NCBI GenBank assembly: GCA_017995215.1
Contig: JAGOJH010000023.1
Span: forward strand, 1-36,550
Origin: Thermoclostridium sp.
Lineage (GTDB): Bacteria; Bacillota; Clostridia; DSM-8532
Reading direction: 5' to 3'
Length of the DNA stretch: 36,550 nt
Shown here: positions 5,202-9,521 of the stretch, in pieces
Layout: each line of letters begins with the position of its first letter
Position numbering within the stretch: the stretch's first letter is position 1
Position numbers and translations under genes: made by a program
The notes under the pieces: generated by a model
Databases searched by the model: none
Told to the model about the DNA's origin: nothing
What the model saw: only the letters and a program-made list of their open reading frames with translations

Positions 5202-5251
5202 TGTTTACATCCGTAACCACATCATATCAGGGGTGTTTACATTTGTCAACA
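5202..5251 (-). promoter_or_regulatory. Promoter and double BlaI-type operator of the repressor/M56 unit
   Basis: The minus strand gives TTGACA (5244-5249), a 17-base spacer and TATGAT (5221-5226), near consensus. Two palindromes share the half-site TGTTTACA: 5234-5251 (TGTTTACA-tt-TGTCAACA, 7 of 8 matched) overlaps the -35, and 5202-5219 (TGTTTACA-tc-CGTAACCA, 6 of 8) sits around the expected start of transcription. Start-to-start distance is 32 bp, about three helical turns. The half-site resembles the TACA/TGTA core of known BlaI/MecI operators. Confidence 0.78.
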
Positions 5252-5342: not shown

Positions 5343-7172
5343 TTAAGATGTTTTCTCCTCCGCAGCCTCTGCCGACAGTTCCAGGGTATACTGGCTCGTA
5401 TAGAGCTTCGCGTAATGCCCCTTTCGGGCCAGCAGCTGAGTATGCGTTCCTTCCTCCAGAATTTTGCCGTCCCGGATCACCAGAATGCGGTCGGCTGATC
5501 GGATCGTAGAAAGCCGGTGCGCGATGATAAAGCTGGTTCTGTTTTCCAGGATATTGGCAATAGCGTCCTGAATCAGATGCTCGGTTTCGGTGTCCACCGA
5601 GGAGGTAGCTTCATCCAGCACAAAGATGGCCGGGTTGGCGATAATCGCGCGCGCGAAGGAAACCAGCTGTTTTTCACCTGTGGACAGCAGTGAGCCTCCC
5701 TCACCCACAGGGGTGTCAAAGCCCTTTTCCATTTTCTCAACAATATGTTGCAGGTTCACAAGCTTGCTGGCCCGGATGATATCCTCGTCGGTAGCATCAA
5801 GCTTGCCGTATATGATATTATCCCGTATGGTGCCGCTGAAAAGGTGCGGTGTCTGCAGCACATATCCAAGGTTTGAATGGAGCCATAGCATCGGCATCCC
5901 GGTATAGTCATGACCATCTATCAGGATCCTGCCCTCGGTGGGCTCGTAAAAACGGCAGGCCAGGTTTACGATGGTGCTTTTTCCAGAGCCCGTGTCCCCT
6001 ACAAGGGCTATTTTTTCACCGGCCCTCACCGTCAGGTTAAAGTTCTCCAGAACCTTTTCCCCGGTTTTATAGGCAAATGTGATATTTTCAAATACGATAT
6101 TCCCCTTCACCTCAGGCCATTTGCTCCGGTTGTTCAGCCCATATTTCGTAAGCACCTCACTACTGTCCTGAATATCGGGCTGTGTTTCCATCAGGGACAT
6201 CACCCTCTCAGCGGAAGCCTGTGCCGACTGAAGATCTGTGAAAATCCTTGCCATATCGCGAATGGGATAGAAAAACTGTATCGCATAGGTGATAAAGGCG
6301 GCCAGCGTACCATAGCTGAGCTTGCCATCGATGACCCCGTTCCCACCCTGCCAGAGCGCAATCCCTGCACCAATAGCGCCCAGCACCATAACAATGGGCA
6401 TGTAGACAGCTGAAAAAGTAGCGGCCCGGATGGATTTGCGGTTCATCTCGGACGTCAGGCCCTGAAAATCCTTCAGGTTTCCGGATTCCCGCACCAGGGT
6501 TTTTGTGGTTTTCACCCCCTGAATGCCTTCATTGAAGGCGGCTGTAATCAGCGAGTTGTTCTTGCGGATATCCCGGTGGCTGAACAGGATTCTTTTTTGA
6601 AAGAACATGCTGACGGCAAAAAGCACCGGAACCACCGTAAAGGTGAGCAACGCCAGCCTCCAATCCAGCGTCAGCATGACAATGATTGAAAAGATCATCA
6701 TGCAAAATCCCCAGGAAAAGTCCACAAGGCCCCAGGAAAGAGTATTGCCCAGCCTCCAGATGTCGGAGGTCAGCCGGGACATCATCCATCCCACCGGGGT
6801 TGTGTCATAATACGAAAAGGACAGTGCCTGAAGGTGCTCAAAGCCATCCTTGCGGATATCATGACATATTCCAGTTTCGACGATACCTGCAGAGGTGATC
6901 ATCAGCTTTACCACGATCATCTGTACCACAATCACCAGTGAGTAAATGACAATGAATACGACTGTGCCCTGCACATTGCGTTGTATAATAAAATTGTCGA
7001 TAGCGTACCGCTGCATCAGAGGAAGAACGGCATCCGCACCAGCCAGGCAGGCCATAAACAGGCTTAATATAATAAGGCGGCCGGTGTAGGGCTTTGCATA
7101 ATGAATCAGTTTCTTCCAAAGGGGCAGATTAAAACCTTTTGAAAATACCTCTTCCTGAAATGTATTGTCCAT
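5343..7172 (-). CDS. ABC exporter half-transporter with intact catalytic Glu (BmrD-like partner)
   Basis: This 609-residue TMD-NBD fusion carries six TM helices in residues 30-330 and an ATPase domain from about 355. Visible motifs are Walker A GDTGSGKST (392-400), Q-loop Q440, a degenerate signature LSTGEKQ (496-502), Walker B FVLDE with catalytic E521 and H-loop H552. The partner gene upstream (7332-9134) has the opposite defect, so the two should form a heterodimer with one competent ATP site. Such pairs export drugs, peptides or lipids. The ATG at 7172 has AAGGAG about 12 bases upstream. The 159-base gap from the upstream gene has no obvious promoter, so co-transcription is likely. Substrate is unknown. 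Confidence 0.88.
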   Translation of the reverse strand: MDNTFQEEVFSKGFNLPLWKKLIHYAKPYTGRLIILSLFMACLAGADAVLPLMQRYAIDNFIIQRNVQGTVVFIVIYSLVIVVQMIVVKLMITSAGIVETGICHDIRKDGFEHLQALSFSYYDTTPVGWMMSRLTSDIWRLGNTLSWGLVDFSWGFCMMIFSIIVMLTLDWRLALLTFTVVPVLFAVSMFFQKRILFSHRDIRKNNSLITAAFNEGIQGVKTTKTLVRESGNLKDFQGLTSEMNRKSIRAATFSAVYMPIVMVLGAIGAGIALWQGGNGVIDGKLSYGTLAAFITYAIQFFYPIRDMARIFTDLQSAQASAERVMSLMETQPDIQDSSEVLTKYGLNNRSKWPEVKGNIVFENITFAYKTGEKVLENFNLTVRAGEKIALVGDTGSGKSTIVNLACRFYEPTEGRILIDGHDYTGMPMLWLHSNLGYVLQTPHLFSGTIRDNIIYGKLDATDEDIIRASKLVNLQHIVEKMEKGFDTPVGEGGSLLSTGEKQLVSFARAIIANPAIFVLDEATSSVDTETEHLIQDAIANILENRTSFIIAHRLSTIRSADRILVIRDGKILEEGTHTQLLARKGHYAKLYTSQYTLELSAEAAEEKTS

Positions 7173-7331: not shown

Positions 7332-9134
7332 TCACGCGGGTTCCACGCCTGCAACCTCTTCCATCGAGCTTTGGATCGCCCATATCCTGGCATACAGTCC
7401 GCCGTCCCGGATGAGCTCGGAATGCGTGCCCCTCTCGATAATGCGCCCCTTGTCGATGACGATGATAAAATCAGCCTGTGCCAGAGAATTAATCCTGTGG
7501 GAAATAATAAACGTGGTGACATCCTTGCTTCGCTCTTTCAAAGCATCCCGGATCAGGATATCTGTCTCCATATCCACCGCGCTTAATGAATCATCAAAGA
7601 TCAGTACAGGATGAGTTTGCAGCACTGTGCGGGCAATGGCCACACGCTGAATCTGCCCACCCGACAGGGTGACGCCGCGCTCTCCGACGAGGGTGTCATA
7701 GCCCTTTTCAAAGGATACGATGGAATCGTGTATGGCCGCTATTTTGGCAGCTTTCTCAATTTCATCACGCTCTGCGTCGGGCTTTGCGAGCTTGATATTG
7801 TCTATCACCGATTTTGAAAACAGGAAAGGCTCCTGCAGAACAATCCCCACATGGCTCCTCAGCCATTTCTTGTCGATTTCCTTCAATTCCACACCGTCCA
7901 GCTTGATAGAACCCTGCTGATAATCAAACAGCCTTACCAGCAGGTGCATCAGGGATGATTTCCCGCAGCCGGTGGGGCCAAGCACGCCCACGGTCTGTCC
8001 CGGCTTCACCTCGAAGGAAATATCGTTCAGCGGGCTTGTGCCGTCAGGGTATTGAAAGGACATCCCTTTAAACACCAGGCCGCCTTTGATCTCAGGGGTC
8101 TTACCCTGCGTGGTTTTGGATTCTGCCGGTTTATCCAGTACTTCGACAATTCTGTCGAAGGCCACGAAGGCCTGACCCATATCTGAAATAACCCTTCCAA
8201 GCTGGCGGATGGGCCATATCAGGTTGCGGATGTATACCGTGAAAAGGATGACTGTTCCCAGTGTGATCCTGCCGTTTGCCGCCCAGAGAACAGATATGAA
8301 AAGCACCACTGCGGCCTGCGCCATGCATAAAAAATCCGACATGGACCAGTACCAGGACATCAGGTTGATCAGCTTTCTGACCTGATTTCTGTGGTTTTTG
8401 TTCTTCACGGCAAATTTATCAATTTCATGGCTTTGCCGGCCAAACGCTTTCACGACGCGAACACCCGTCAAATTCTCCTGAATGGTGGTATGCATCTCCG
8501 AGTCGGTCTGCTCCACCTTCTGGAAGGTTTTCTTCACCTTCGTAAAGAAGATGAAGGACGCCAGGAATATAAACGGGATGACACAAAGGGAGTAAAGGGT
8601 CAACTCCACATTGATTGAAAGCATCGTGACGAGTGTGAGCACCACGTTAAACAGGATTTCACCCACCTGCGGCACCTGGTTGGACAGAAAGTTCCGCGTG
8701 GTTTCTACATCGGAGGAGCAGCGCTGAGTCAGGTCGCCGGTCTGCGATTTTACATGCTCGTAATACTCCATATGCTGAAGATGGTCATACATGGTATCCC
8801 GGATATTCTTGGCAGCGTTTTCGCAGCTCATGGAAATCCAACGGCTCTTCAGGTATTGAAATAACCCCGATATAAGCGTCAGCACTACAAAAATCAAGCC
8901 GAGCGCCCATATTCTGGGGCTTAAGCCTTCCCTCCCGCCAAAGCGGTCGACCAGCTTCATCATCCACCCCGGAAGGTTCATCGGTTCGGTGCCGATCACA
9001 GAATCCACCGTAAAGCTGATGACCATCGGGTTAATCACAGAAACGAGTACGCCAATCCCTGAAAAGATAATGGCCGTATAATAGCGAAGCAAATTCTTTT
9101 TCATGAATTGCTTCAGTATTCTGAGTCTTTTCAT
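7332..9134 (-). CDS. ABC exporter half-transporter with Glu-to-Asp Walker B (BmrC-like partner)
   Basis: The 600-residue TMD-NBD protein has six TM helices in about residues 17-310 and its NBD from about 350. Walker A is GPTGCGKSS (386-394), the Q-loop is Q434, the signature is canonical LSGGQ (490-494), Walker B is LIFDD with D515 replacing the catalytic Glu, and the H-loop is H546. This is the degenerate-site partner of a BmrCD/TM287-288-type heterodimer: its LSGGQ completes the active site of the neighbour. The start at 9134 has AAGGAGG 6 bases upstream. Transcription probably begins far upstream and passes through a leader peptide and a terminator-like hairpin (9162-9340), implying attenuation control. 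Confidence 0.88.
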   Translation of the reverse strand: MKRLRILKQFMKKNLLRYYTAIIFSGIGVLVSVINPMVISFTVDSVIGTEPMNLPGWMMKLVDRFGGREGLSPRIWALGLIFVVLTLISGLFQYLKSRWISMSCENAAKNIRDTMYDHLQHMEYYEHVKSQTGDLTQRCSSDVETTRNFLSNQVPQVGEILFNVVLTLVTMLSINVELTLYSLCVIPFIFLASFIFFTKVKKTFQKVEQTDSEMHTTIQENLTGVRVVKAFGRQSHEIDKFAVKNKNHRNQVRKLINLMSWYWSMSDFLCMAQAAVVLFISVLWAANGRITLGTVILFTVYIRNLIWPIRQLGRVISDMGQAFVAFDRIVEVLDKPAESKTTQGKTPEIKGGLVFKGMSFQYPDGTSPLNDISFEVKPGQTVGVLGPTGCGKSSLMHLLVRLFDYQQGSIKLDGVELKEIDKKWLRSHVGIVLQEPFLFSKSVIDNIKLAKPDAERDEIEKAAKIAAIHDSIVSFEKGYDTLVGERGVTLSGGQIQRVAIARTVLQTHPVLIFDDSLSAVDMETDILIRDALKERSKDVTTFIISHRINSLAQADFIIVIDKGRIIERGTHSELIRDGGLYARIWAIQSSMEEVAGVEPA

Positions 9135-9161
9135 TGGAAACCTCCTTGTTTCGTCTATTGG

Positions 9162-9224
9162 CAGATTCCTTGAAAAATCTGAAGAGGCAAAGAAGGGCTA
9201 CAGATTTCAAAGAAACTGCAGCCC
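9162..9224 (-). promoter_or_regulatory. Candidate transcription attenuator ahead of the ABC exporter
   Basis: Seventeen bases after the leader-peptide stop, the minus strand forms GGGCTGCAG/CTGTAGCCC (9216-9224 with 9195-9203). It is extended by an inner GAAA/TTTC pairing and followed by the T-rich TTCTTT, as in an intrinsic terminator. A second hairpin, CAGATT/AATCTG (9162-9167 with 9176-9181), sits just before the exporter ribosome binding site. Its arm CTTCAGATTTTTCAA is largely complementary to TTGAAATCTGTAG of the terminator, so the two folds look mutually exclusive. This is the expected geometry for ribosome-mediated attenuation. Confidence 0.65.
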
Positions 9225-9241
9225 TGTGTTCTCAATAAGAG

Positions 9242-9340
9242 TCAGAGGATGGTGATCCCCCCGGGATGCAGGTGCGAGCCGCCATGCTCGAAGCTAAACT
9301 GCAATCTGAAAAGGCAATAGCGTTGATAGCCTGCGAACAT
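9242..9340 (-). CDS. 32-residue leader peptide upstream of the ABC exporter
   Basis: The minus strand reads from ATG at 9338-9340 to TGA at 9242-9244. The peptide begins MFAGYQRYCLFRLQF and ends HLHPGGITIL. It has an ideal ribosome binding site, AAAGGAG (9349-9355), 8 bases before the ATG, so it is very likely translated. The stop lies 17 bases before a terminator-like hairpin and 107 bases before the exporter start. By analogy with bmrB ahead of bmrCD in Bacillus subtilis, ribosome stalling on this peptide by an antibiotic would favour an antiterminated fold. The peptide sequence itself is not one I can match. Its Arg/Tyr/Phe-rich first half and SHLHPGG end are candidate stall segments. Confidence 0.7.
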   Translation of the reverse strand: MFAGYQRYCLFRLQFSFEHGGSHLHPGGITIL

Positions 9341-9492
9341 GAAACAGTCTCCTTTCACCAGGTAATCCGTCGGTTTCGACATTGAAGCCGATTTCAATCC
9401 TCTTTCATTTTGGAAGAATTGTAAACCCTTTATGCATGATGTTTACCACCGTATCGAGCATGCTTTTAAGACAGTATTGATGATCCTATACT

Positions 9493-9521
9493 ATTTTACT
9501 CCCCACTATGTGGAAAGTAAA
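9493..9521 (-). promoter_or_regulatory. Possible promoter for the leader peptide/ABC exporter unit
   Basis: The minus strand has TTTACT (9516-9521), a 17-base spacer and TAAAAT (9493-9498). The spacer contains an imperfect palindrome (ACTTTCCAC-ATA-GTGGGGAGT) that could be a regulator site. The transcript leader would be about 145 bases to the leader-peptide ATG. Match to consensus is only fair. Confidence 0.4.

Follow-up and report, generated by a model that had tools for sequence, protein, structure and literature searches.

Induction of the bmrCD genes of Bacillus subtilis by lincomycin, erythromycin and chloramphenicol requires translation of the leader bmrB (PMC4191407). The Listeria leaders Rli59 and Rli53 are induced by translation inhibitors, and an anti-antiterminator/antiterminator arrangement has been reported for Rli53 (PMC8079631). 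The same three-way logic is described for vmlR, which also provides the general reason why an antiterminator must lie upstream of its terminator (PMC9226507). Ketolides and macrolides arrest ribosomes at Arg/Lys-X-Arg/Lys (+X+), a motif within leader peptides (PMC8298421). Naville and Gautheret predicted attenuation for many ABC transporter genes and left the mechanisms open (PMC2965389). No description of the attenuator family reported here was found in the part of the literature that was searched.

The window, by which we mean the whole stretch of DNA analysed, comprises 36,550 nt from Thermoclostridium sp. (GCA_017995215.1, contig JAGOJH010000023.1, positions 1 to 36,550). A heterodimeric ABC exporter encoded on its minus strand is probably controlled by a ribosome-mediated transcription attenuator, in which three RNA strands (A, B and C) compete and a ribosome stalled on a short leader leads to read-through. 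The leader frame appears to be a switch that watches the ribosome, with the exporter transcribed only under impaired translation. The exporter, the leader and the terminator arms map as follows.

7332–9134, minus strand: ABC exporter subunit 1, 600 amino acids, with ABC_membrane and ABC_tran domains, a Walker B motif ending in D and the signature LSGGQ (sequence and Pfam).
5343–7172, minus strand: ABC exporter subunit 2, 609 amino acids, with a canonical Walker B motif and the degenerate signature LSTGE, the heterodimer partner (sequence and Pfam).
9493–9521, minus strand: predicted sigma-A promoter of the leader transcript, TTTACT-17-TAAAAT (promoter scan).
9349–9355, minus strand: leader ribosome-binding site (RBS), AAAGGAG (sequence).
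9242–9340, minus strand: leader open reading frame, 32 codons plus TGA, peptide MFAGYQRYCLFRLQFSFEHGGSHLHPGGITIL (sequence, and frames of homologues at the same place).
9216–9224, minus strand: strand C, GGGCTGCAG, the 5′ arm of the terminator and alternative partner of B (folds and duplex energy).
9195–9203, minus strand: strand D, CTGTAGCCC, the 3′ arm of the terminator, with the tail TTCTTTGC next to it (sequence and folds).

Because the Walker B motif of subunit 1 ends in D and the signature of subunit 2 is LSTGE, the exporter is a heterodimer with one degenerate ATP site, as in the bmrCD type. The PDB matches of its subunits include TM287/288, TmrAB and BmrC/BmrD (YheI/YheH). Downstream of the exporter operon lie a BlaI/MecI-type repressor gene and a gene of the BlaR1-like membrane-protease type (5249–2399, minus strand), with a strong promoter-like box, TTGACA-17-TATGAT, at 5249–5221. 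PF00398 (rRNA adenine dimethylases, the fold to which Erm belongs) matched strongly over its full length once, and twice over short segments.

The original prediction had described a 32-codon frame with a good RBS that ends 17 bases before a 9-bp terminator-like hairpin, and both elements are present: the frame at 9340–9242 behind the RBS at 9355–9349, and, across a 17-base gap from the leader stop on the minus strand, the hairpin at 9224–9195. The hairpin reads GGGCTGCAG-TTTC-TTT-GAAAT-CTGTAGCCC, followed by the tail TTCTTTGC. Its stem has 9 bp, including one G-U pair, plus 4 inner bp beyond a one-base bulge, and its stability is about −17 to −20 kcal/mol. The tail is only fair (5 T in 8, with the T tract interrupted), and another 60 bases separate it from the start of exporter subunit 1. 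A short leader frame with its own RBS is therefore found upstream of the exporter gene, with an intrinsic terminator of imperfect T tract between the two. When the upstream region was shuffled 400 times with its dinucleotides preserved, an RBS-led frame of 18–46 codons followed by an equally stable hairpin and a T-rich tail never occurred (0/400); the frame alone occurred in 64 of the 400 and the hairpin alone in none (0/400). The leader peptide has no match in NCBIfam or Pfam.

In the proposed mechanism, strand A is the leader RBS region, strand B lies in the last ten or so leader codons and the 5′ terminator arm serves as strand C; RNA polymerase would synthesize A, the leader frame with B, C and D in that order. 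With no ribosome on the leader, A:B would form and leave C free for D, and the resulting terminator would keep the exporter off. During normal translation the ribosome would cover B while C is being made, and the C:D terminator would form here too. A ribosome stalled or queued in the early or middle part of the leader would cover A and leave B free; B:C pairing could then precede the transcription of D and would let the polymerase continue into the exporter genes. Such stalling would most likely come from a drug-bound ribosome, or from any slowed elongation. The corresponding strands A and B of the window are the following.

9356–9368, minus strand: candidate strand A, GGATTACCTGGTG, immediately upstream of the leader RBS (minimum-energy folds, terminator included).
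9263–9271, minus strand: strand B, CTGCATCCC, in the final leader codons, the 5′ strand of the antiterminator (homologous site in loci L046–L049 and L052).

The window's B:C pairing, CTGCA-CCC with GGG-TGCAG, lies at the homologous place and consists of five plus three pairs around one mismatch, with a duplex energy of −13.4 kcal/mol in a search restricted to the end of the frame. When a ribosome is placed at codon 12 and strand D is still unmade, the best fold of the window contains exactly B:C. Strand A is weak, has drifted from its counterparts in relatives and is displaced upstream of the RBS compared with them; its GGAT/GGTG can pair with ATCC/CACC around B, with a partner probability of 0.15–0.42 that is reached only in folds without the terminator. 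Compared with shuffled leaders over the whole frame, neither pairing of the window alone exceeds chance (A:B, p = 0.55; B:C, p = 0.45), so the window's case rests mainly on homology with its congener L046 and with the wider family. The window and L046 both keep the RBS, the frame length, the promoter and the position of B.

The exporter is found at 75–84% identity in nine genomes of the same GTDB family (eight at full length, L053 partial), at 46–49% identity in nine more genomes, and at further loci across the class and beyond. The nearest named relatives of the window are metagenome-assembled Clostridiaceae/Ruminiclostridium genomes. Leader, terminator and promoter are conserved: most exporter homologues have an upstream frame of about 21–46 codons with a strong RBS, a terminator follows the frame in most, and a box TTTAC[A/T]-16/18-TA...T lies upstream of the leader or terminator in seven related loci (L045–L049, L051 and L052). 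The leader peptides are unrelated beyond close clades, as in MAARINENFRNNTYVHSDKHLHPGYIPVL, MTRSYWFDFKLYFSACVYYDNNLQPEKNRSF and MRTRLDINTHKVLNMAYLHYIRNCNPIVHT. Common to the leaders is a nucleotide sequence near the frame end that fits the terminator arm. Strand B reads CCTGCA-N-CC against strand C GGCTGCAGGTT in the group to which the window belongs, and the two strands change together in other genera, as in L074 (TATTACCCATGCC with GGCCATGGGTAATA), L087 (ATTACCTATGCC with GGCCATAGGTAAT), L084 (TTTGCACGACCTTATGCC with GGCCATAGGTTCGTGCAAA) and L096 (GCCTCCGGT with GCCGCAGGT). In relatives, strand B is in addition complementary to strand A, the RBS region of the leader itself: GGAGGTCGTG with CACGACC in L067, GGAGGCTGCGA with TCGCAGCC in L058, GGGGGTTGTT or GGAGGTTGTT with AACAACC in L047 and L048, GGAGGCAACTT with AGTTGCC in the Spirochaete loci L035 and L038, and GGGGCATACG with GTATGCC in L100 and L101. 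The A:B helix is rebuilt in other letters from clade to clade (GGTCGTG:CACGACC, GGCTGCG:CGCAGCC, GGCAACT:AGTTGCC, GGTTGTT:AACAACC and GGGCATAC:GTATGCC). Both pairings thus covary across the family, and the attenuator that the original prediction had proposed for the exporter is well supported by the leader frames, the terminators and the covarying alternative pairings of the homologues.

It is the RNA, rather than the peptide, that is kept, since one and the same RNA is read in different frames, as F-A-R-P in L067 and as C-T-A-C in L063. Codon tests of the relatives' leader peptides were mixed (pN/pS of 0.2 to 2.3, at few sites), and we therefore make no claim of selection on the peptide. A search with the leader peptide for its relatives matched roughly a third of genomes at E ≤ 1; the matches looked like chance and lay in unrelated contexts. 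The leaders of genera g2 and g4 (L054–L057, L061 and L062) contain AAA, mostly as VAAA. The stretch coding for it is rich in GCGGCC (mostly GCGGCCGC) and complementary to the RBS region, which reads GGTCGCG, GGTCGTG or GGCCGCA. In many class-level relatives, the terminator upstream of the exporter is followed in tandem by a further terminator-like hairpin of similar sequence (L067, L068, L073, L074, L077, L079, L080, L084–L087, L092, L094, L095 and L099).

A small-molecule riboswitch or a T-box that happens to contain a short frame would likewise give a structured leader with a terminator ahead of a transporter. Rfam 15 had no family matching the window or any of 20 related loci. Conservation falls on the leader RBS, the last codons and the terminator and includes no unpaired core, and B lies within a translated-looking frame that is read differently between species. 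We consider a riboswitch or T-box extremely unlikely.

The pairings of the attenuator were compared with those of dinucleotide-shuffled frames. Of 46 leaders, a set in which L034, too near a contig end for strand A, was scored as 1, 31 had an A:B duplex superior to the shuffles at p ≤ 0.05; B:C was better at the same threshold in 21 of 38, with the terminator cores chosen by eye and set by hand because automatic picking selected long folds in several leaders. No clear terminator could be assigned to L054–L057, L061 and L062 (genera g2 and g4), which therefore entered the A:B test alone. The B segments that pair with A and with C share 6 nt or more in 32 of 38 leaders, and B lies about 30 to 13 nt ahead of the frame end. 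Fisher's combined p is tiny, and such nominal p values overstate independence, as the sequences are related. In a swap test with 20,000 permutations, the species' own A or C was compared with the A or C of other species against its own frame. Own strands matched better for A:B (z = −8.8 and −9.8 for two lengths of A; 0/20,000 permutations) and for B:C (z = −7.9; 0/20,000), and the result was much alike in a thinned sequence set. The exporter's own start region, used as a negative control, gave 1 of 44 at p ≤ 0.05 and a swap z of +1.6. Strand A matched the N-terminal part of the leader less well than the frame end (z = −3.3), as expected if B sits late. The family thus has an antiterminator strand within the leader frame that is exclusive with the terminator, and an upstream strand around the leader RBS that would sequester it; the window has the former at the same site and the latter in weak and displaced form.

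The pattern AGGAGGTCGTG-N40-70-CACGRCCT was also scanned over 391 genomes without reference to any protein, and gave 8 matches, compared with 2 for the reversed pattern. Six of the eight precede exporter homologues, five of them already encountered (in G046, G084, G138, G168 and G181) and one new (L106 in G379). The match L111 looks like chance. At L108 (G235:C5), the same leader plan, comprising the RBS complement, an ARP-coding B and tandem terminators, stands ahead of small proteins: in the roughly 700 bases downstream, two related proteins of about 60 amino acids, with no Pfam match, take the place of an ABC exporter.

The locus could alternatively be a plain intergenic or promoter-proximal terminator next to a chance short frame, a decayed leader that exerts no translational regulation in this organism. 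The chance-level pairings of the window and its interrupted T tract agree with such decay, as does a pN/pS of around 1 in parts of the relatives' leader peptides. In addition, the congener L045 (G002:C156), whose exporter is 84% identical, has lost the leader frame but retains promoter and terminator, which lie some 100 bases upstream of the exporter gene; the leader is therefore dispensable there. Against decay stand the features retained jointly by the window and L046 and the absence of any RBS-led frame plus terminator from the 400 shuffles, and we regard a decayed leader as unlikely.

The original prediction had placed the alternative pairing on the 3′ side of the hairpin, where AAATCTG (9207–9201) is complementary to CAGATTT (9181–9175), just before the exporter RBS. 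That duplex exists on paper, with an energy no better than in shuffles (−9.3 kcal/mol, p = 0.18). Relatives give p values of 0.07–0.69 for this kind of duplex: 0.08 for an 11-bp duplex at the corresponding position of the congener L046, 0.29–0.69 in four of the five relatives at greater distance, and 0.07 in the remaining one, L034. As the CAGATTT segment is transcribed only after the termination point, downstream of the hairpin, it cannot prevent termination or act as an antiterminator, and could at most affect the exporter RBS. The competing strand lies upstream: it is the last leader codons that contain the antiterminator, and not the segment ahead of the exporter RBS. A second segment past the terminator bears on translation.

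9182–9188, minus strand: GCCTCTT, predicted partner of the exporter RBS AAGGAGG at 9147–9141 (minimum-energy folds).

This segment can cover the exporter RBS, and its predicted pairing may constitute a second, translational layer of control. It resembles the RBS-covering hairpin of vmlR, and the same GCCTCTT is present in L045. An arrangement in which read-through depends on the pairing of the terminator 3′ arm before the exporter RBS, or in which that pairing frees the RBS in the manner of vmlR, is nevertheless improbable in our assessment.

For the upstream attenuator, sensing of antibiotics by the leader is plausible, given the exporter downstream and the enrichment of +X+ in relatives. The motif, tested after the leader peptides had been inspected, occurs ahead of B in 11.0 of 26 clades, against 5.2 ± 1.5 expected (0/2000 residue shuffles). 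Spacings of 0, 2 and 3 between K/R residues show no enrichment in the leaders of the 26 clades; when the same DNA is read in one shifted frame, which has more K/R, +X+ appears in 7.7 of 26. A rough estimate of the ribosome footprint suggests that arrest at +X+ would keep B accessible in 25 of 27 cases. In many relatives the signal would probably be an antibiotic of the macrolide/ketolide type. The leader peptide of the window is without +X+, the motif of macrolide arrest. A peptide consensus, F-R/K-hydrophobic, is also enriched (5.1 versus 1.6 of 26 clades) and is given no weight because it was noticed after the sequences had been inspected.

Amino-acid attenuators of the trp/his type, in which starvation rather than a drug stalls the leader ribosome, share the A/B/C/D logic, and early stalling from any cause would suffice. 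They use a run of one regulatory codon, which is absent from the leaders of the window and its relatives; moreover, the controlled genes serve export, not amino-acid synthesis, and the leader peptides vary freely between species. Amino-acid starvation as the signal is very unlikely.

More tentatively, at slightly below an even chance in our judgement, a Clostridia-wide attenuator family, with two Spirochaete loci, may guard heterodimeric ABC exporters as a nearly sequence-independent sensor of stalled, macrolide- or ketolide-bound ribosomes. Selection would then act on the contest between RBS, last codons and terminator, and the peptide would be free except for a minimal trigger such as +X+. 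If this is right, many Clostridia of anaerobic communities carry inducible drug exporters whose induction escaped protein-based annotation, since their leader peptides are not conserved. The family would offer dozens of natural variants for testing how much leader peptide the sensing of stalled ribosomes needs, and its RNA features (a complement of the RBS in the last codons, and of the terminator arm) allow such leaders to be found without knowledge of the peptide.

The parallel with bmrB-bmrCD drawn in the original prediction is right in kind. As for bmrB, a leader frame, a terminator and a predicted antiterminator and anti-antiterminator stand ahead of a heterodimeric multidrug ABC exporter (PMC4191407). 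BmrB, however, has 53 codons with the terminator inside its coding region (PMC4191407), whereas the frames here have 21–46 codons and the terminator follows the leader stop (by 17 nt in the window), so the details are not those of bmrB. The leader peptide of the window also appears to differ from BmrB. Like the Listeria leaders Rli59 (before lmo1652) and Rli53 (before lmo0919), the locus combines a short leader ORF with a downstream ABC gene (PMC8079631); the likeness is in the reported arrangement, and the Rli53 ORF has three codons (PMC8079631) compared with 21–46 here. With vmlR of Bacillus subtilis it shares a uORF-containing anti-antiterminator, an alternative antiterminator and a hairpin (here a predicted one) over the target RBS (PMC9226507), but vmlR controls an ABCF ribosome-protection protein, with NusG pausing (PMC9226507), and the target here is an exporter. 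The arrest motif of ErmDL-type leaders (PMC8298421), Arg/Lys-X-Arg/Lys, is enriched in the leaders of the relatives; ErmDL has a defined peptide as its stall site (PMC8298421), whereas here most of the peptide is free and that of the window lacks the motif. The attenuator works like bmrB-bmrCD, Rli53/Rli59 and vmlR, and is a widespread variation on a known principle.
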